From Murdochiella massiliensis (GTDB taxonomy: Bacteria > Bacillota > Clostridia > Tissierellales > Peptoniphilaceae): DNA of 64,000 nt. The notes below the pieces were generated by a model, which did no database searches, was not told the origin of the DNA, and worked only from the letters and a program-made list of their open reading frames with translations. Below are positions 5,692 to 21,512 of this stretch, piece after piece. Location: contig NZ_FIZW01000002.1 of assembly GCF_900059565.1 (NCBI RefSeq), positions 248,001 through 312,000 of the forward strand, written 5' to 3'. Numbering within the stretch: position 1 is the stretch's first letter; the number at the start of each line of letters is the position of its first letter. The translations under genes were made by a program, and so were the position numbers.

Positions 5692-6819
5692 TTACCTCGA
5701 AATCACTTCTTTCTTTCCCACCACAAACGGATGAGAGTACGCGCCGGCAAGGGTAACGCCTTCTTCTATCATCGCACGCTTATCGGTGATGGTGTTGACG
5801 ACAACGGCGTTAGGACCGACAACGGTTTTTTCGTTCAAAATGCTGTTGCGTACTATGGCGTCTTTATGCACATGCACGCCGCGGGAAAGAATGGAGTTTT
5901 CCACCTGTCCTTCAACAATACAGCCATTCGCCACAAGACTGTTGCGTACATTGGCGCTGGGTGCATACATGGTCGACGGTTCATCTTTGGACTTGGTGTA
6001 AATCATGTTGTCACGGAAGAAGATTTCCTGATATAGGTTCTGATCCAAAAGACTCATGCTGGCCTGAAAATAAGAGTAGATGTCATGGATGACCAAAACG
6101 GGAGCGGAAACCTCATACACACCGATTTTCAACCGCTTTCTCTCCTTGTTAATCGCTTCAATAAGCGTCGTGGCCGAACCGCGTTCCAGAGCATGCTTGA
6201 CCAGGTTCACAAAAACGGTGCGCTTTATGAACATACGCTCCAGATAAAGCGGAAACGCCTCATTTGTTCCCAGATTGATGCCCATGTTCACAAAATTGCC
6301 CTGTTCATCCAAAATCAGCTTACTCATATTGGTATAGACGCCGCCGCGATCCTCAATGTTTTTATAGAAGAGCAGGACATCGTTTCCGCTTTCTAAAAAG
6401 CGATCATACGCTTCATCCAGATCCGCTTTGGTAATCATCATCGGATTCATGACATGGATATTGGACGCCGTGGATTCCTCAAAAAAGGTAATCGAGTCAT
6501 AGTACGTCTGAATGATACTCGGATGTTGATCCCAATTGCGACTGGGCGGATTGATAAATAAGCCGTTGTTTCGCCGATTCAGTTCCCAGTTCTTCCCGTC
6601 ACCCACATGATCCAGCGTGGAACGAATATTGTTTCCGCCATAAAGGATGACACGAGACAGGCTGTAATTGGAAAGGCTGGAGAGAGCAAAGTCAATGATG
6701 CGATAACGCCCGCCGAAGGGAATCATATACTCCGGACGATTCTCGGAAAGTCGGCCGAAGTCGCGGTGACCGTGCTCACCGTCATAACGAGAATAAATAA
6801 TGCCAAGACAATCTTTCAT
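5692..6819 (-). CDS. glgD: Glucose-1-phosphate adenylyltransferase, GlgD subunit
   Basis: This 375-aa protein is the second, usually regulatory, subunit of Firmicute ADP-glucose pyrophosphorylase. It keeps the substrate-side block [19 protein letters not shown] and a C-terminal left-handed beta-helix (about 285-365). At the N-terminus the catalytic GGxGxRL loop of GlgC is replaced by YSRYDGEHGH, so the subunit is expected to be non-catalytic. This matches the known GlgC/GlgD division of labour. The ATG follows AAGGAGTAGGCG, which overlaps the glgC stop. Confidence 0.95.
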   Translation of the reverse strand: MKDCLGIIYSRYDGEHGHRDFGRLSENRPEYMIPFGGRYRIIDFALSSLSNYSLSRVILYGGNNIRSTLDHVGDGKNWELNRRNNGLFINPPSRNWDQHPSIIQTYYDSITFFEESTASNIHVMNPMMITKADLDEAYDRFLESGNDVLLFYKNIEDRGGVYTNMSKLILDEQGNFVNMGINLGTNEAFPLYLERMFIKRTVFVNLVKHALERGSATTLIEAINKERKRLKIGVYEVSAPVLVIHDIYSYFQASMSLLDQNLYQEIFFRDNMIYTKSKDEPSTMYAPSANVRNSLVANGCIVEGQVENSILSRGVHVHKDAIVRNSILNEKTVVGPNAVVVNTITDKRAMIEEGVTLAGAYSHPFVVGKKEVISR

Positions 6820-6822
6820 CGC

Positions 6823-7962
6823 CTACTCCTTTGTAATTTTTCCATCGGCAATCAAATAGATGGCTTCGGATTGATCCTGTCCGATCTGCTGATCCGCTTC
6901 AATGACCTCATTTTCGCCGATGACCGCGTGAGAGACTTTCGCTCCTTTTTTAATGACCGTGCCCGAAAGCACCACACTGTCCTTGACTTCCGCCCCCTCT
7001 TCCACGGTAACATTCGTAAACAAAACGCAGTGATCCACTTTGCCGTAAATGCGACACGCTTCATTGACCAGCGAATTGGTCACTTCCGCTTTTTCGCCGA
7101 TATAATGCGGCGGAAGATTTTTCGCCGAGGTGTAAATACGCCAGTTTTTCTCATAAATATCCAAGCCATTGTGAGGATCAATCATGTCTAGATTGGCTTC
7201 CCAGTAGCTTTTGATGGTTCCTACGTCTTTCCAATAGCCCTTAAACCGATAGACATAAAGCGGCATTTTCGCCTTCAGCATTTTTGGGATGATGTCGTGG
7301 CCAAAGTCGTAGGTGGAATCCTTGTCGTTATAGTCCTCGACCAATGCCTTGCGCAGGGTTGGCCAGTTGAAAACGTAAATACCCATCGAGGCCAGATTGC
7401 TTTTCGGCTCTTTCGGTTTTTCCTCAAATTCTATGATGCGATCGTCCTCATCCGTATTCATGATGCCAAAACGGGAGGCTTCATCCCAAGGCACTTCCAT
7501 AACCGCAATCGTAGCTTCTGCGCCTTTTTGGACATGAACATCCAAAAGACGATTGTAGTTCATTTTATAAATATGATCACCCGATAGAATCAAGACATAT
7601 TTGGGGTTAAGATTATCCAAATAAGCGATGTTTTCATAAATTGCATTGGCGGTCCCATCATACCAACGTCCCCCCTCTTCCGAATAGAATGGAGAAAGCA
7701 AACGCAAGCCGCCATAAGTGCGGTCATAATCCCATGCGGTACCGATGCCGATATGTTCATTGAGTCGAAACGGCTTGTACTGTGTCAACACGCCGATATC
7801 ATGAATATCCGAATTGGTGGCATTACTCAGAGCAAAGTCGATAATACGGTATTTCCCGCCAAAGGGGACTGCGGGCTTAGCAGTCTCTCGCGTCAGTGCT
7901 TTTAAGCGCGAGCCTTGTCCGCCTGCCAAAAGCATGCAAACCATGCCGCTTTGATTTCTCAT
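6823..7962 (-). CDS. glgC: Glucose-1-phosphate adenylyltransferase, catalytic GlgC subunit
   Basis: This 379-aa enzyme makes ADP-glucose from ATP and glucose 1-phosphate, the committed step of glycogen synthesis. The nucleotide loop [13 protein letters not shown] is intact, followed by [19 protein letters not shown]. The Asp metal site lies in [11 protein letters not shown], and a C-terminal beta-helix domain follows. The start is set at ATG 7962 because AAAGGAGGGAGCACGA lies directly upstream; an open frame eight codons longer lacks such a site. It is the first gene of the operon, behind an extended -10 promoter. Confidence 0.96.
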
Positions 7963-8030
7963 TCGTGCTCCCTCCTTTATATGCATTCCTTTATCGTTAT
8001 CTTACGGCAAAACGTTATCCTTCTTGTCTT

Positions 8031-12686: not shown

Positions 12687-13646
12687 TTAATTTTTTGTCG
12701 CTTCACTGCTCTCTGCAGGCGCTGCGGAAGCATCTGCTTCCGAGCCTTTCTTCGATTCGGCTTCCGACACTGCGGATGACTCGCTTTCGCCTTCAATTTT
12801 GACATCGGCGGCCGCAATCTGTTCCTGCAGATATTGCGTGTATTTATCTCCATTAATCTTTTCCACAATCTGATCATGAAGCGCTTCAACGGTATCGTTA
12901 CGCTTGTTCACCTGAATGATGTGGAATCCGAACTGGCTCTTTACCGGAGCGCCGATTTCGCCCACCTTCTGTTCAAGAATAGCCTTCTTGAATTCGGGAA
13001 CAAACTTGTCGGGCGAGGTCAATCCTAAACTTCCGCCATTTTGTGCGGATTGCGCATCCAGAGAGACCTCTTTGGCGACATCTTCAAATTTCTCGCCTTT
13101 ATCCAGACGTTCTTTCACCTTGTTCGCTTCATCTTCCGTCTTAACCAAAATATGGCGAGCTTCTACGGTAATCAGCGCGTCCTTATTCTTTTCAAAATAC
13201 GTTTTGATCTCATCGTCGGCAGGCTGGTGATTCTGATTGAACCACTCTCTATGCTTACGCGAAATGGTCTCATAACGGAGGCTGTCCTTAAGCTGATCAT
13301 CCGTAATACCGAGCGATTTAATGGTGTTGCTATAATTGGCCGCACCACCATATGCCTGAATGGCCTTATCGTACTCCACGGCATAATCCTTGTCGGTCAA
13401 TTCGATTTTGTTCTTTTTCAGTTCCTGCAACATAACCTGCTCAGAAATAAGTGATTCGCGGATCGTCATGGGTAAACGATACTGCGCGGCGATCATGCTT
13501 TTATAGAGATCCAGCTGGGAATCGTACTTCGCCTTGGAGATTTTCTCTCCATTGACGGTGGCAAAGGTCTCCTGTGATGCACCACAGCCGGCCAACGCCA
13601 ACATACCTGCCAATGCCAGAGCCACTACTTTTTTACTGCTTTTCAT
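12687..13646 (-). CDS. prsA: Peptidyl-prolyl isomerase lipoprotein (PrsA/SurA-like, parvulin)
   Basis: A 319-aa exported foldase lipoprotein. The signal peptide ends in the lipobox LAGC (Cys21). A SurA-like N-terminal chaperone region (about 28-150) is followed by a parvulin domain (about 160-255) with EARHILVKTEDEA and QFGFHIIQV. The last 40 residues are rich in Ser, Ala and Glu and look unstructured. It should help fold proteins outside the membrane. The gene starts inside the last codons of mfd (14-base overlap) behind AAGGAGGAAAGTATTA. Clostridial and bacillar gene runs often place a prsA-like gene after mfd. Confidence 0.9.
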   Translation of the reverse strand: MKSSKKVVALALAGMLALAGCGASQETFATVNGEKISKAKYDSQLDLYKSMIAAQYRLPMTIRESLISEQVMLQELKKNKIELTDKDYAVEYDKAIQAYGGAANYSNTIKSLGITDDQLKDSLRYETISRKHREWFNQNHQPADDEIKTYFEKNKDALITVEARHILVKTEDEANKVKERLDKGEKFEDVAKEVSLDAQSAQNGGSLGLTSPDKFVPEFKKAILEQKVGEIGAPVKSQFGFHIIQVNKRNDTVEALHDQIVEKINGDKYTQYLQEQIAAADVKIEGESESSAVSEAESKKGSEADASAAPAESSEATKN

Positions 13647-16600
13647 TAATACTTTCCTCCTTGTTTTTTAACTGCGTCATGAGTGACAGTAGTCGTTTCG
13701 TATCATTTAGTTTTCTCGGCGTTGCCGCGATCTTAAAACGCGGCACTTTCTGAAAGTCGAAGGTCAGCGGACCGCTATACCCTTCAGAAATCGCCTTGAG
13801 CTGTTCCACGGAAAATTGTTCAAAACGCTCATAACGCAATTCGACCGCTTCTTCCGTCTCCTTAATACGAGAAAAGCCCAAGTCGCTCGCCCATCGTTTA
13901 ATCAGGGCGATGTTGAGCAGATTTTCAACGCTTTCCGGAGGGTCACCGAAGCGATCAATGAGTTCCTCTACAATTTTACCGTAATCTTCTTCATTTTCAA
14001 TCGCAGCGATCTGACGATACATCATGATTTTGTCGGAACTTTGAGGGATGTAGCTGTCAGGAATGTAGGCACTGACCTTAACATCGACGTTAATGTCATC
14101 CAAATGCACCTTTTTCGTTTCTCCTTTGACGCGGGCTACCGCTTCTTCCAACATGCGCACATACAGCTCATAGCCGATGGACTCGATATGGCCGGATTGG
14201 CTCTCTCCCAGAAGATTTCCCGCTCCGCGAAGTTCCAGATCACGCATGGCAATTTTATAACCGGAACCGAACTCACTGAAATCGCGTATAGCTTTTAAGC
14301 GTTTTTCCGAAATTTCCGACAGCATGTGATCGCGTTCATACGTAAAATAGGCATAACTTTGTCTATCTGAGCGCCCGATGCGTCCCTTCAACTGATAGAG
14401 CTGGGACAGGCCCATGCGATCGGCTCGCTCAACGATGAGCGTATTGACGTTGGCGATGTCCATTCCCGTTTCAATGATGGTGGTCGAAAGCAAAATATCG
14501 GCTTCCCCCGATACAAAGCCCTCCATTACATTTTCCAGTTCACGTATGCTCATCTGGCCATGGGCCACCGCAATACGTGCCTCCGGCACAAGAGCCTGAA
14601 GACGCTCATAGGCATAATGAATATCATGAACGCGATTATGAACAACATAAACCTGGCCATGGCGGTCCAATTCACGCCGAATGGCGTCGCGAATAACGAG
14701 AGGATCTGCCTCAAGCACATAAGATATCGTCGGATAGCGCTCTTCCGGCGGCTCCTCCAGAAGACTCATATCGCGAATTCCCGTCAAAGAAAGTTGAAGA
14801 GTTCGCGGAATGGGCGTTGCGGAAAGCGTCAACACATCCACGTTTTCCTTCATTTTCTTCATTTTCTCTTTGTCCTTTACGCCGAAACGTTGCTCTTCAT
14901 CGACGATCAGCAGGCCTAAATCCTTGAAATGCACATCTTTGGACAGCAGGCGATGCGTTCCCACAACAATGTCGACACTCCCCTGACCGAGACTTTTTAC
15001 GACTTCTTTTTGCTTCTCCGCGCTTTTAAAGCGGGAAAGAAATTCAATGCGCAACGGAAAAGAAAGAAAGCGATCCATCATGGTCTGATAATGCTGTTGC
15101 ACAAGAATCGTGGTAGGAGCCAGGAAGGCAACCTGTTTTCCATCCATAACGGCCTTGAATGCTGCGCGCAATGCCACCTCAGTTTTGCCATAGCCGACGT
15201 CTCCGCAGAGCAGACGATCCATGGGCTTGTCCCGTTCCATATCCTGTTTGATTTCCTCGGTTGCCCGAAGCTGAGAGGGCGTCTCTTCATAAGAAAACGA
15301 CTCTTCAAATTCCTGTTGCCAAGGCGAATCCGGTGCAAAGGCATGCCCCTTTACTTTCGCTCGTTTTGCATAGAGAGCCAACAGATCTTCCGCGATCGCA
15401 TCCACCGCTTTTTTCGCTTTTTCTTTGGAGCGCTTCCATTCGCCGCCTCCCAAAGAAGAGATACGCGGCTTTGGACCGCCACTTCCGATATATTTGGTGA
15501 CCAGGTCCATTTCGTCGGTAGGTACGTAGAGCGCATCGGCACCTTTGTAGCTGATTTTAATAAAATCCTTGACCAGTCCGTCATACGCGATGGTTTCCGT
15601 ACCCAAAAACTCTCCGATGCCATAGAGTTCGTGCACGACATAGTCTCCTGGTGTTAAATCCTGGTAGTTGAGCAAATCGCTTTTTCGACGCGGACGATGA
15701 ACCGGTTTCCGTTTCTTTTCCTGACCGAAGATTTCCGTACGCGAAAAAATCAGTACATTGCTGTCCACCAATTGAAAACCGTGCGGTAAAGACAGACGGC
15801 TGAGAAGAATTTGTCCCTCCTTGAGAGACAGGGAATCACTTTTTTCGGTTTCGCGCGAAAACTGTACATCAGAAGCGGTTAAACGTTCAGCCAAGGCATT
15901 ATCCGCCGCACCGCAGGCAAGAAAGACCTTTTTCTTCTGTTTCTGCGTCCAATGTAAATACGCCACAAAGTCCGTCCAACGATGATGAAAGTTCTCCAAC
16001 TCTCTCGTGCGTATCTGCAACAGAGCATCGGGTGTGAAAAACCGCGATTTTTTCAAAATTTGTGTGAGATTGATCATGACATACGCCGAAAGACTTTCTG
16101 CAATCTCCTCCGCAGGCAAGAGATGATGCAGATGTTCACGCAGCAATTCAGACTGTTCGGCTAAGGTCGTAACCGTCTCCAGCACCAGCGCATCCCGGCG
16201 TTTTTCGGTCTCCATAATGCGCGAAAAATCATCAAAGACCACCACCGCATTGTCCGGTAAATAATCCATTAATCCGGCCAGCGCATCGTCGTTAAGATAA
16301 GCTTCGGCCAGATCGGGATTGTCAACATGATTATCTGTTTCAAGCGTATCCAGAAGACGGTAAAATTTATCCAGATGCCCTTGACGACGTTCTTTTTTAG
16401 CCAAGCGCTCCGCTTCGGAAATATCTTTCTTCAACCGCTGGATCACATCCTGACAATCCGCATCGGTAAAGAGCAGGTTTTCAGCCGGCGTGAGCAGAAT
16501 GCTCTCCACCGCTTCATCACTTCGTTGTGTTTCAACGGAAAACGTATGAATACGATCAATGGTGGTGTCAAAAAATTCAACGCGATATGGCTGCTTCGCC

Positions 16601-17157
16601 GAGGGTGGGAAAACATCCAGAATATCCCCGCGCACGGAAAACTCGCCGGCGTGTTCGACAGAGGTCGTCCGCACATAGCGCATAGACACAAGTTTTTGCG
16701 CAACCGTATCAAGCTCCGCTTCCTTTTCCACGGTAAGCGAAACAACACTCTGTGCATAACGTCTCGGCGGTACGACGCGTCGCTTGAGGGCGGTCAATGT
16801 CGTAGAAACAATCAGATTTCCGCCGTTATACAGCCGCTGTAAAACGGCTAAGCGCTGACGAGAAACGGGTGAAACAACGGTATCCGTCTTGAAAAATTGC
16901 CACTCTTCTTCGGGATACGTCACGGCATTATCCGCACCGGATAAAACCAGTGCATCGGTGAATGCACGAGCCTTCACCGCCGATTCAAACACGACAAAAA
17001 CAGGACAACTTCGTTTTTCCGCCAAGGAGGCGACAAAGGGTCCTGTGCTTTCCCCCACTAAACCGTGAAGATGGATACGCCGTTTTCCCGCCTGCAACGT
17101 CTGCAGAAGGCGGGAAAAACGGGGCTCCGCTAAAAATAAATCTTCTACCTTACTCAT
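13633..17157 (-). CDS. mfd: Transcription-repair coupling factor
   Basis: A 1174-aa DNA translocase that removes stalled RNA polymerase and recruits the UvrA repair complex. Order: UvrB-like N-terminal modules, a CarD-like RNA polymerase-interaction domain ([19 protein letters not shown] near residue 500), a RecG-like helicase core with Walker [10 protein letters not shown] (near 652) and VDEEQRFGV (near 754), motif [14 protein letters not shown] and a C-terminal regulatory domain. The start is ATG 17157, overlapping the pth stop as TGATG with GGAG upstream. An open frame four codons longer begins with TTG and is less likely. Confidence 0.96.
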
Positions 17158-17840
17158 CAATCTCCGCAACGCTTGGCGCCTTTACGAAACGCATCTTGAC
17201 GTTCGCGTTCCTGATCCCGCTTCGCTTCAAGTGCTTTCTTCTCTTCGCTTTGCTCTTTTATCGAAGGAGCAAGCCATCCGTTCCAGGTGTTCATCGCGGT
17301 GGGAAGGTCATGATCCAGAATATCGAGAACCGCCTGTGCCGCCGCCTCGGTTTCTTCGTCAATCGTCTTCTGATCTTCTTCCGCAAAGCGGGCCAGAACA
17401 AAGTCCGCAAGGTCCCACGAGGCCGGCCGATGACCGGTCGCAATCTTCACTCGGGCAAAGGCATCGCTGCCCAGTTCCTGAACAAGAGATCGCAGCCCGT
17501 TATGTGTTCCGGCCGATCCTTTTTCACGTATGCGCACCGTCCCCAGATGAATATCGATGTCATCGACGAGCACCAGCACATCTGCCGGTTCGACATGATA
17601 AAAGTCGACAACCTGTCTGACCGCTTTTCCGGAAAGATTCATATAGGTCTGCGGTTTGACCAAAACCAGTTTTTGTCCGGCATAGCGTCCTTCGCCGATT
17701 AACGCATCCCACTTCGAACGGTCCACGGCAATCCCCAGTTTTTGTGCTACACGATCCAACACGGCAAAACCGATGTTATGGCGTGTCCCCTCATAACGCG
17801 CACCCGGATTTCCCAGGCCGACAATAATCTTCGTACTCAT
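17157..17840 (-). CDS. pth: Peptidyl-tRNA hydrolase with extended charged tail
   Basis: A 227-aa hydrolase that recycles peptidyl-tRNA released from stalled ribosomes. The N-terminal signature VGLGNPGARYEGTRHNIGF contains the catalytic His21; VLVDDIDIHLG and GSAGTHNGLRS follow. Family members are usually about 185-195 residues. Here the last 35 or so residues form a Lys/Glu/Arg-rich tail, possibly a helix, of unknown role. The ATG overlaps the prs stop as ATGA, and the stop overlaps the mfd start. The order prs, pth, mfd is common in Firmicutes. Confidence 0.95.
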   Translation of the reverse strand: MSTKIIVGLGNPGARYEGTRHNIGFAVLDRVAQKLGIAVDRSKWDALIGEGRYAGQKLVLVKPQTYMNLSGKAVRQVVDFYHVEPADVLVLVDDIDIHLGTVRIREKGSAGTHNGLRSLVQELGSDAFARVKIATGHRPASWDLADFVLARFAEEDQKTIDEETEAAAQAVLDILDHDLPTAMNTWNGWLAPSIKEQSEEKKALEAKRDQERERQDAFRKGAKRCGD

Positions 17841-18790
17841 CGGCTGAACAACCCGCTGACGGACTTAAACGAGTAGACGCGTCGAATGGCTTCCGCCAGC
17901 AAGGGCGCGATCGAAACAATTTCAATCTTCTCGTTCATCTTTTCTTCATCCAGCTTAACCGTATCGGTGACGACACATTTCTTTACAGAGGAACGCAGGA
18001 TCTTTTCCGAAGCATTGCCGGACAATAGAGCATGGGAAGCGGTAATGTAGACATCCTTCGCTCCCCGTTTGGTCAGGAAGTCGGCCGCATTGGTAATCGT
18101 TCCGGCGGTATCAATGATGTCGTCAATGATGATGCAATTCTTGTTTTCCACATCGCCAATGATATCCACTACTTCCGAAACGTTAGCTTCAGGACGGTGT
18201 TTTTCAATGATGGCGATGGGCAGGCCGAGCAGATGCGAAAAAGCGCGTGCGCGTGTGACACCGCCCAGATCCGGAGAAACCACCATCCAGTCGTCCGGCG
18301 AATCCTTGACCAGCGGACGGAAATAATCGGCTAAAAGACGACCGCCCTGGAAATGATCTACCGGAATATCGAAATAGCCCTGAATTTGTCCGGCATGAAG
18401 ATCAACCGTGATGACACGATCCACGCCTGCCGTCTCAAGCAGGTCCGCTACGAGTTTCGCCGTAATCGGCTCACGGCCGCTGGTTTTACGGTCCTGACGG
18501 GCATAACCGTAATATGGCAGGACAAGGTTAATGTGGCTGACGGATGCGCGCTTAAAGGCATCAGCACAAATGAGGGCTTCCATCAGATGGTCATTCACCG
18601 GCTCGGACGTCGGCTGAATCAGAAAAACATCATAGCCACGGACCGTCTCATTGATTTTGACGTTAATCTCGCCGTCAGCAAAATGGCCTACCTTCATGTC
18701 GCCAAGCGGCATGTCCAGTTCCCGACAAATCGCCTGCGCCAACGGAAGATTGGCATTTCCCGAAAAAATCTTCATTCCCACGCGTTCCAT
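17837..18790 (-). CDS. prs: Ribose-phosphate pyrophosphokinase
   Basis: A 317-aa enzyme making PRPP from ribose 5-phosphate and ATP for nucleotide, His and Trp synthesis. The catalytic flexible-loop region YARQDRKTSGREPI, the metal/ATP signature VDLHAGQIQGYFDIPVDH and the PRPP loop IIDDIIDTAGTI are present. The start is ATG 18790 behind AAAGGGGGATGT; 17 further codons upstream stay open but lack a ribosome site. It lies 92 bases after the glmU-like gene, the usual partner upstream of prs. Confidence 0.96.
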   Translation of the reverse strand: MERVGMKIFSGNANLPLAQAICRELDMPLGDMKVGHFADGEINVKINETVRGYDVFLIQPTSEPVNDHLMEALICADAFKRASVSHINLVLPYYGYARQDRKTSGREPITAKLVADLLETAGVDRVITVDLHAGQIQGYFDIPVDHFQGGRLLADYFRPLVKDSPDDWMVVSPDLGGVTRARAFSHLLGLPIAIIEKHRPEANVSEVVDIIGDVENKNCIIIDDIIDTAGTITNAADFLTKRGAKDVYITASHALLSGNASEKILRSSVKKCVVTDTVKLDEEKMNEKIEIVSIAPLLAEAIRRVYSFKSVSGLFSR

Positions 18791-18882
18791 ACATCCCCCT
18801 TTGTCCTTTTCGCGTTTCCACGAGCATCGTCTGCACGGCAAGTCCGGAATCTTTTTCGTTACGGTATGTCGTGCAAAAAGCC

Positions 18883-20004
18883 TTACAACAACCCCTTCTC
18901 TTTACGTCGAGCCACATAGCCCGGAATATTTCGCTGTTCCGCACGTTCCACGGCTAACGCCCCTTTATCGACCGCTTTGGTAATCGTTGAGCCTGCGGCG
19001 ATAAAGCTCTCGTCTTCCACCTCAACCGGGGCAACCAGATTGGCATTGGAACCAATAAATACGTGGTCACCGACGATGGCCTTGTGCTTGTTCTTTCCAT
19101 CATAGTTACAGAAGATGACCCCGCAGGAAATGTTAACGTCCTTTCCCACTTCCGCATCACCGATATAGGCAAGATGTCCCGCCTTTGTTCCTTCGCCAAG
19201 GCTTGCTTTCTTAACCTCGACAAAATTACCGATGTGCACATTCTCGCCGATGATGGCATGCGGACGTAAATGGGAGAACGGACCGATATTTGAAGCTTTA
19301 GCCATCACGGATTCTTCAATTATGGAAGAACGGATGGTGACATTATCGGCAATGGCCGAATCCGTAATTTCCGATCCTTCCGTGATCAGACAATGTTCAC
19401 CGACTGTGGTTTTTCCCATGATGCGTACGGCACCGCGAATCCAGGTTCCTTTGCCGATAATGACCTCAGGGGCAATGCGCGTTAAAGTGGGTTCATCAAT
19501 GCGCACGCCTTTTTCCATCCAGCAATAACAGATCTTCTGCGCCAAATGTTTTTCCGCCAATTGCAACGTCAAAAAGGAATTGACCACCGGAATATCAAGG
19601 AAAAGTTCATCGATAACAGGATCCGCATCGTCTGGCTTAGCGACATCCATCCAAGCCTCAAAAAAGGTATCAAAATCGTCGGCAAAGGCATCCTGCAGCA
19701 GCTTCCGTTCCTGTTCGCTCACCTTGACCGCCGCCGGATGGCCGTCATAATCTGTCAACACACGTTGTTCGTCACTGTAGAAGCGATACAACATCTCCTC
19801 ATCCAGTCCCGCTGCGGCTTCATGAACGACAAGCAGATCTCCCCGACACGTGTCAAGTCCGTCCTGAAGAATCGTCCAGGACGGACCTGTAGCGGCTTGC
19901 ATAATCAATTCGCGAATCGGATGACCCAATATCCGCATTTGTGCTTCTTCCTCCGCGCGATGCGCGTTAAGAAAGGAGGAAGACAGAATAAAAAGTGAAG
20001 GCAT
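18883..20004 (-). CDS. glmU: GlmU-like protein: acetyltransferase domain kept, uridyltransferase domain degenerate
   Basis: A 373-aa protein, against about 450-460 for normal GlmU. The C-terminal left-handed beta-helix (about 145-373) is well kept: KAGHLAYIGDAEVG holds the acetyltransferase catalytic His, followed by CNYDGKNKH and FIGSNANLVAPV. The preceding linker VNSFLTLQLAEKHL matches the end of the GlmU pyrophosphorylase domain. The N-terminal half is only about 140 residues. Where GlmU has LAAGKGTRMKS, this protein has ILSSSFLNAHRAEEEAQ, and the uridyl-binding motifs are missing. I infer it can acetylate glucosamine 1-phosphate but not make UDP-GlcNAc. The start follows AAGGAGAGAGT. Gene order with prs, pth and mfd is that of standard glmU. 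Confidence 0.85.
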   Translation of the reverse strand: MPSLFILSSSFLNAHRAEEEAQMRILGHPIRELIMQAATGPSWTILQDGLDTCRGDLLVVHEAAAGLDEEMLYRFYSDEQRVLTDYDGHPAAVKVSEQERKLLQDAFADDFDTFFEAWMDVAKPDDADPVIDELFLDIPVVNSFLTLQLAEKHLAQKICYCWMEKGVRIDEPTLTRIAPEVIIGKGTWIRGAVRIMGKTTVGEHCLITEGSEITDSAIADNVTIRSSIIEESVMAKASNIGPFSHLRPHAIIGENVHIGNFVEVKKASLGEGTKAGHLAYIGDAEVGKDVNISCGVIFCNYDGKNKHKAIVGDHVFIGSNANLVAPVEVEDESFIAAGSTITKAVDKGALAVERAEQRNIPGYVARRKEKGLL

Positions 20005-20126: not shown

Positions 20127-21512
20127 ATGTTTCAATTTACTTTACAGCCTACAAAAATAAAAAAAGTCCATTTCATTGGCATCGGCGGCGTCAGTATGTC
20201 GGGCATTGCCGAGCTGCTTCATGATAAAGGGTTCACGGTCACCGGATCGGATATTCGCGATAACAAATATGTGCGCCATCTGCAATCTGTTGGCATCCCC
20301 GTAACGATCGGTCAAAAAGCGGAAAATATTACCGATCAGGAATTTTTCGTCTATACCGACGCCATTCTCCCGACCAATCCGGAGCTACAGGCGGCTATAG
20401 CTACGCGCAAGCCCTGCGTAACACGAGGACAATTCTTGGGCGCCCTGATGCAAAATTTCCCCGCTTCCATCGCCGTTTCCGGGTCACACGGGAAATCTAC
20501 GACCACATCCATGATTTCGGATATTCTCATTCGTACGGATGAATCTCCCACAATTCTGTTGGGCGGAACGTTGGATGACATCGGCGGAAATGTACTTTCC
20601 GGAGACGGCCCGTTTTTCCTGGCGGAAGCCTGTGAATACAAAGGCAACATCCGCTATTATTATCCGCAGATTGCCATCGTCCTCAATTTAGACGAAGATC
20701 ATCTCGACTATTACAAGGACATGGATGATATAGTTAATGCATTTGAAGGTTATATGGAAAATATTCAGCCTGACGGTGTCGCCATTATCAATGCGGATGA
20801 TCCGCATTCAAAAACCCTTCCCGCCCATGTAACGGGACGCGCAATTACCTATGGCATAAACAATACGGAAGCCGATTACTACGTTACTGACGTCACGTTC
20901 GATTCCGTCGGACATCCGGCGTTCACACTGCATTTCCCGGACGGCACCAGCGAACACTATCAGTTGGGGATTATCGGGCGCTTCAACATTTATAACGCCG
21001 TCGCATCCATTATCGCGTGTGATGTTACACACGTTGATCGGAAAATCATTAAGCAGGGAATTGAAGAATACCGTCCGCTGCATCGCCGCATGGAATACGT
21101 CGGCGACTTCTGCGGTGCGCGTGTACTCACCGATTACGGTCATCATCCGGTGGAAATTCGTGCAACCCTACATGCTCTTGCCGAACATAAAACGAAAAAA
21201 CTCTGGTGTGTTTTCCAGCCCTATACCATTTCCCGCACCAAGACGCTGATGAATGATTTTGCCAAAGCCTTCAGTGATGCGGATGAATCGGTCATCACCG
21301 CCATTCAGGTGGCACGCGAAATTGACACCGGCGAAGTAACCGGCGACCATCTGGTGAAACGTATTTGTGAAAATGGAGATAACGCCGTATTTCAGGAGAC
21401 CTTTGCCGACGTGTGTGCATACCTGAAAGATCGGGTTGCGGAAGGCGACATCATCTTGACGACGGGATGTGGAAATGTCGACGAGTTGGCGGAAATGTTG
21501 GTTCGTTATTAA
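20127..21512 (+). CDS. murC: UDP-N-acetylmuramate--L-alanine ligase
   Basis: A 461-aa Mur ligase that adds L-Ala to UDP-MurNAc in the cytoplasm, the first peptide step of peptidoglycan synthesis. The N-terminal fold has the Gly-rich IGIGGVSMSGIAELL (residues about 17-31). The ATP loop is SGSHGKSTTTSM near residue 117, and LNLDEDHLDYY is also typical of MurC. The start follows GAGGAGGAGAA. It is transcribed away from the glmU-like operon, so two steps of the UDP-sugar route share one promoter region. Its 3' end overlaps the convergent TPR gene by 4 bases, with no terminator between them. Confidence 0.96.
   Translation: MFQFTLQPTKIKKVHFIGIGGVSMSGIAELLHDKGFTVTGSDIRDNKYVRHLQSVGIPVTIGQKAENITDQEFFVYTDAILPTNPELQAAIATRKPCVTRGQFLGALMQNFPASIAVSGSHGKSTTTSMISDILIRTDESPTILLGGTLDDIGGNVLSGDGPFFLAEACEYKGNIRYYYPQIAIVLNLDEDHLDYYKDMDDIVNAFEGYMENIQPDGVAIINADDPHSKTLPAHVTGRAITYGINNTEADYYVTDVTFDSVGHPAFTLHFPDGTSEHYQLGIIGRFNIYNAVASIIACDVTHVDRKIIKQGIEEYRPLHRRMEYVGDFCGARVLTDYGHHPVEIRATLHALAEHKTKKLWCVFQPYTISRTKTLMNDFAKAFSDADESVITAIQVAREIDTGEVTGDHLVKRICENGDNAVFQETFADVCAYLKDRVAEGDIILTTGCGNVDELAEMLVRY

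Follow-up and report, generated by a model that had tools for sequence, protein, structure and literature searches.

The 64,000-nt stretch of the Murdochiella massiliensis genome analysed here (the window; its genome is G000) carries a glmU orthologue in which the acetyltransferase half is intact and the active site of the uridyltransferase half has decayed. In bacteria, GlmU is generally regarded as a drug target that is both essential and bifunctional. We propose that the acetyltransferase-only GlmU makes N-acetylglucosamine-1-phosphate (GlcNAc-1-P), and that NT304, a stand-alone nucleotidyltransferase encoded elsewhere in the genome, probably converts this product to uridine diphosphate (UDP)-GlcNAc, displacing the uridyltransferase half. 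The features concerned are the following.

18883 to 20004, minus strand: glmU orthologue of 373 residues with a decayed uridyltransferase half (open reading frame, profile and alignment)
19585 to 20004, minus strand: uridyltransferase-domain remnant, residues 1-140, with the predicted fold kept and the nucleotide loop and UTP-site residues lost (alignment, model and selection)
18883 to 19584, minus strand: linker helix and left-handed beta-helix acetyltransferase domain, residues 141-373 plus the stop codon (profile and alignment)
G000:C2:660653-661564, minus strand, outside the window: NT304, stand-alone nucleotidyltransferase of 304 residues (genome search)

Loss and retention in the two halves of GlmU

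The initial annotation had reported a GlmU with a shortened uridyltransferase half at 18883 to 20004; these coordinates were right, and the strand is the minus strand. Ahead of a common anchor the window protein has 166 residues, compared with 251-255 in all seven intact relatives examined, and it is thus 85-89 residues short, close to the roughly 90 estimated at first. The same count gave 160-169 residues in ten aligned rows from the window's clade, which comprises 11 genomes with a decayed GlmU, and 196-208 in the other three decayed rows (G059, G096 and G097), the shortfall of the domain being 82-95 and 43-59 residues, respectively. Likewise, the glycine-rich loop and its arginine were indeed gone, the loop LAAGEGTRM of intact GlmU being represented by LSSSFLNAH in the window protein. 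With the intact GlmU of the relative G098 as the motif reference, all 13 decayed rows have substitutions or deletions at LAAGEGTRM, the Lys of PKVLHK, the Gln of EQPMG, YGTG, the GD of YGDTPL and YGR, and all seven intact rows keep these motifs; the GlmU of the fourteenth decayed genome, G092, is 98% identical to the window protein and lies outside this alignment. An excerpt of a study on GlmR states that K25, Q76 and D105 of the Haemophilus influenzae GlmU are absolutely required (PMC10128056); the corresponding window residues, matched by motif, are Glu, a deletion and Ala. The TIGR01173 (glmU) profile covered residues 141-368 only (profile positions 223-451), and its score of 280.3 bits was below the curated cut-off of 366.85. 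The window protein thus lacks the LxxGxGTRM loop and the UTP-site Lys, Gln, GTG and Asp that define bifunctional GlmU. Judged by its sequence, the gene encodes an acetyltransferase-only GlmU that carries a vestige of its partner domain, and on its uridyltransferase features it falls outside bifunctional GlmU.

An extension at the N terminus does not fit, since only three open codons precede the ATG in frame (376 residues from stop to stop) and the divergent murC gene follows after a gap of 122 bases. Furthermore, the same open architecture recurs in orthologues that are 98, 90, 71 and 61% identical to the window protein, each from a separate genome of the genus, so the short GlmU is not a sequencing error. 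The possibility, raised in the initial annotation, that such an error or a frameshift hides a full domain was thereby excluded. A pseudogene, frameshift or assembly error was also rejected: each of the 11 clade genomes has a match uninterrupted by stops, which aligns to the glmU profile from position 222-233 only, and synonymous changes predominate in both parts of GlmU. We found no point in favour of this explanation and give it practically no weight.

By contrast with the uridyltransferase half, the acetyltransferase half is intact, as had been annotated for its beta-helix, catalytic His and acetyl-CoA region. Hexapep matches were found in this half, and R247, K265, H277, Y280, N291, N300, Y301, K306, S319, A337 and R354 were invariant across 26 aligned sequences; we take the roles of these positions to be those of their counterparts in Escherichia coli GlmU, whose numbers are 86 higher. 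Among five sequences of the genus, the ratio of nonsynonymous to synonymous substitution rates was 0.03-0.11 in the acetyltransferase part (eight of ten pairs) and 0.06-0.26 in the remnant (six of ten pairs usable, four saturated); the pairs are not independent of each other and some are close to saturation. By this measure the remnant is under purifying selection and not junk. In addition, it likely keeps the fold of the uridyltransferase domain, as suggested by structural models. This predicted fold is not independent evidence, since complete GlmU sequences were part of the alignment used for modelling and the mean pLDDT (predicted local distance difference test) was 67-73 for four of the five models. 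The lists of structural matches extend to 50 entries, so absence of a family from them does not argue against it.

The glmU-prs-pth-mfd order, annotated as normal, was verified by NCBIfam matches, as was murC. The neighbouring genes are listed here.

17837 to 18841, minus strand: prs, ribose-phosphate diphosphokinase (open reading frame as listed; NCBIfam on residues from 18784)
17157 to 17840, minus strand: pth, aminoacyl-tRNA hydrolase (NCBIfam)
13633 to 17169, minus strand: mfd, transcription-repair coupling factor (NCBIfam)
20127 to 21512, plus strand: murC, divergent neighbour, a wall-pathway gene consuming UDP-GlcNAc (NCBIfam)

Recurrent decay of GlmU and the occurrence of NT304

Of the family's 130 genomes, 128 gave a match to TIGR01173; the completeness of the two others, G030 and G064, is 82% and 76%, respectively. 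Within the 128, the GlmU of 113 genomes aligned from profile position 2-4, that of 14 from position 186-233 only and below the cut-off, and that of G038 in two pieces around a stop codon; 'intact' is used here as defined by this alignment, the motifs having been inspected in seven intact genomes. The 14 decayed genomes are those of the window's clade (G000, G091-G094, G067, G079-G082 and G095) together with G059, G096 and G097. The short form also occurs in the named relatives Murdochiella sp., Levyella massiliensis, Kallipyga massiliensis, Kallipyga gabonensis and Khoudiadiopia massiliensis; in the NCBI taxonomy Murdochiella and Khoudiadiopia belong to the Peptoniphilaceae and Kallipyga to Tissierellia incertae sedis. 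In a tree built from the acetyltransferase part and Prs for the 49 of 130 genomes whose loci were at hand (three without Prs), at least three changes to the decayed state fell on supported branches, namely the clade of 11, G059, and G096 with G097. Forcing the decayed genomes together was rejected (approximately unbiased test, p = 2e-63), and the N-terminal domain is intact in G098, which is sister to G096 and G097. On this phylogeny, decay of GlmU arose independently at least three times in the family. In G038 (G038:C1:163827-165175) the GlmU frame is broken by a TAA, and this genome also has NT304; the stop represents a sequencing error or, alternatively, the onset of decay.

NT304 was present in 45 of the 130 genomes. 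All 14 decayed genomes have it, compared with 31 of the 114 other GlmU-bearing genomes (Fisher p = 9.6e-8, with kinship ignored). In an NT304 tree of 52 rows, which leaves out G081 (NT304 split over two contigs), decayed genomes supplied 14 rows, 13 of which fell in one large group with G098 and 21 database rows. Another group held 15 of the 16 rows from intact genomes, these 16 being drawn from 31 such genomes, as well as the second copy of G067 and one database row. Within the large group, the NT304 proteins of the three decays sit on three different branches. G067 encodes two NT304 proteins of different subtypes (G067:C8:21952-22848 and G067:C35:8068-8985).

The genomic context of NT304 was inspected in 18 neighbourhoods from 17 genomes, a set that does not include G094. 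Within the window's clade, an AI-2E-type transporter gene lies opposite NT304 at ten of ten loci and the acetate kinase gene ackA adjoins it at nine, the contig ending at the tenth. A GlmS-like gene is located 4.5 kb from NT304 in G000, and the same gene is near it in G091 and G092. In G059, G096 and G097, all decayed, NT304 adjoins genes for an APH-type (NahK-type) kinase and a GalE-like protein, with Pfam matches backing the kinase in G097 and G059 and the epimerase in G097. In G097, G028, G033, G024 and G070 the neighbours of NT304 include transporter genes, identified by eye, and a gene resembling lacto-N-biose phosphorylase, an assignment backed by Pfam (PF09508) in G097 only. An APH-type kinase of Bacteroides thetaiotaomicron that is 39% identical to BL1642 of Bifidobacterium longum is described as a GalNAc kinase in an excerpt of PMC11992087, and the uridylyl step is not named in the excerpted part of PMC7335108. 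Because the NahK-type kinase and the GalE-like gene adjoin NT304 in three decayed relatives, these neighbours point to N-acetylhexosamine-1-phosphate as its natural substrate. NT304 is likely a UTP:N-acetylhexosamine-1-phosphate uridyltransferase, a role on GlcNAc-1-P being suggested by co-occurrence, exclusion and context only.

A probable course of events is that NT304 came from N-acetylhexosamine catabolism of the lacto-N-biose/galacto-N-biose type, in which it would uridylylate the N-acetylhexosamine-1-phosphate made by the NahK-type kinase, GalE acting next. Once NT304 is in the cell, the same reaction would make the N-terminal domain of GlmU redundant, and its active site would decay. 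The shell of the domain would have been retained, perhaps because it keeps the acetyltransferase trimer or the linker helix in position.

Alternative sources of UDP-GlcNAc

It had been suggested in the initial annotation that either another protein makes UDP-GlcNAc or the short domain has a new role, and a search of the genome for a second GlmU or a stand-alone uridyltransferase had been advised. The first of these ideas is well supported, with NT304 in every decayed genome and neither a second GlmU nor a eukaryotic-type UDP-GlcNAc pyrophosphorylase (UAP) or GlmR detected in G000. The new role is weakly supported by the predicted fold and the purifying selection on the remnant. A second GlmU was rejected, since G000 has one match of the right kind and two weak matches to the hexapeptide part. 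UAP as a stand-in was rejected as well, none being found in G000 by a PF01704 profile search; the profile works on such data, because another searched genome, G156, exceeded the cut-off, which none of 14 control genomes did in either run. Searches with PF00483 and PF12804, the latter run on G000 alone among the 14 decayed genomes, returned GlgC, GlgD, IspD and NT304. Both Glg proteins, encoded in the window, match their own equivalog models.

6823 to 7986, minus strand: glgC, PF00483 protein (PF00483 search, NCBIfam)
5692 to 6819, minus strand: glgD, PF00483 protein (PF00483 search, NCBIfam)

Among the families searched, NT304 is by sequence the only candidate left in G000. Similarly, in nine of the 14 decayed genomes the PF00483 search revealed only a GlgC/GlgD-like pair, named by model in G000 and elsewhere by size and adjacency, and NT304 (two copies in G067; a second fragment in G059). 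G079-G082 and G095 additionally have a GalU over its cut-off, and G082 has two further nucleotidyltransferase domains.

The best rival considered is that GlmR (YvcK) took over the uridylylation of GlcNAc-1-P, NT304 being merely catabolic or a UDP-glucose enzyme. GlmR of Listeria and its orthologues make UDP-GlcNAc from UTP and GlcNAc-1-P, according to the excerpt of PMC10128056. As the profile search missed Bacillus subtilis among the controls, it was repeated with a GlmR protein of the family as the query. This query matched 78 of the 130 genomes, with five of the 11 clade genomes named as lacking a match and the other six absent from the matches. GlmR was thus found neither by profile nor by protein query in G000 or the other ten genomes of the clade, for which we rejected it; overall we consider this explanation improbable. 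Somewhat less improbable, though still unlikely, is that UDP-GlcNAc is supplied by an unrecognised protein, or by IspD or GlgC in a moonlighting role, and that NT304 is a co-occurring UDP-glucose or UDP-galactose pyrophosphorylase. NT304 is indeed the sole GalU-like protein in nine of the 14 decayed genomes and so may make UDP-glucose; moreover, three of 18 genomes outside the family with a short GlmU lack any PF00483 match, so that unrecognised enzymes may exist. Against this stand the five decayed genomes with a true GalU besides NT304, the score of NT304 on the GalU profile TIGR01099 (22.3 bits against a cut-off of 326.8), which places it outside GalU, and the recurrence of the association in three independent decays. 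Finally, the short domain might retain uridyltransferase activity through a new site or a composite site with NT304. This is very improbable, given the loss of the G-loop and of all three required residues, and given that length and sequence vary among the three decays, which is expected under relaxed constraint and not for a new site.

Several observations nevertheless weigh against the displacement by NT304. The tree provides just three independent pairs for its association with decay, a number too small for a sign test, which was not significant, and 31 genomes combine NT304 with an N-terminal domain that is not decayed by profile (interrupted by the stop in G038), so the arrival of NT304 does not force decay. 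In the window's clade NT304 adjoins ackA and is not part of a sugar operon, and of the five neighbourhoods with a lacto-N-biose phosphorylase, four come from intact-GlmU genomes with another NT304 subtype. Three of the 14 decayed genomes (G059, G096 and G097) have GlmR, and a literature search revealed no enzyme activity for an NT304 homologue. Outside the family, NT304 matched in only two of about 23 genomes with a short GlmU, these loci having been collected by open-frame length without single curation and one of them, L074, beginning at a contig end. In G171 a single frame of 663 residues (G171:C14:4822-6597) holds two copies of NT304 arranged head to tail, and G165 has a fragment. NT304 as a universal partner of short GlmU was rejected on this ground; since it is mostly absent there, other bacteria lost the domain without NT304, other routes exist, and the displacement is not universal. 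PF01704 matched in one of 23 outside genomes, TIGR01826 in none of 23 and PF00483 in 15 of 18 searched; G138, G139 and G173 (loci L047, L048 and L082), which may be incomplete genomes, had no match to any of the three.

In uncultured Clostridia we observed the GlmU acetyltransferase domain fused in front of GlmM in a protein of about 630 residues (L047:5935-7824 and L059:5920-7800), with NCBIfam showing both parts in L047 and L059, and L048-L052 and L060 assigned by length only. A short acetyltransferase gene lies next to glmM in L055, L075 and L082, and glmM is located just upstream in L054.

In the family, GlmR occurs in four of 45 genomes with NT304 and in 74 of 85 without it (raw p = 5e-19); with kinship considered, this pattern comes down to six independent pairs and is not significant. 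The sister genomes G069 (GlmR without NT304) and G070 (NT304 without GlmR) display such a swap.

Comparison with known systems

If NT304 replaces this activity of GlmU, the function of a large family would be named. One of the two activities of GlmU has been lost repeatedly and was likely replaced by an enzyme of that family, and inhibitors of the GlmU uridyltransferase site are not expected to act on these bacteria. A natural before-and-after pair exists in a genus where two species are decayed and a sister is intact. A bolder view, which we hold only tentatively and regard as rather doubtful, is that NT304 and its thousands of relatives constitute a new UTP:N-acetylhexosamine-1-phosphate uridyltransferase family from host-glycan catabolism that displaced half of an essential enzyme at least three times in one family, the remnant docking NT304 or holding the trimer, so that GlmU is split into two polypeptides. 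Among titles and abstract openings of the open-licence literature, we found neither a report of a GlmU without its uridyltransferase half nor a function for the 3pnn family, which is weak evidence of absence.

Relative to bifunctional GlmU (TIGR01173, NF010934; PDB 1hm0 and 1hv9), the window protein differs in the missing 85-89 residues and in the absence of the G-loop and the UTP-site Lys, Gln and Asp. NT304 matches the family of PDB 3pnn, a Porphyromonas gingivalis protein, over its full length in sequence and fold; the entry is titled a glycosyltransferase, its molecule is called a 'conserved domain protein', and the function proposed here for NT304 is inferred only. GlmR/YvcK is likewise a second protein making UDP-GlcNAc from GlcNAc-1-P and UTP; unlike NT304, it belongs to a CofD-related family, is described beside an intact GlmU in the excerpt of PMC10128056, and was not found in G000. 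NT304 of G097 resembles the lacto-N-biose/galacto-N-biose pathway in its neighbours, which include an APH-type kinase, a GalE-like epimerase and a lacto-N-biose phosphorylase (PF09508). In bifidobacteria the uridylyl step of this pathway is carried out by a GalT-type transferase. NT304 would differ in being a UTP-dependent enzyme, and in G000 its neighbour is ackA.
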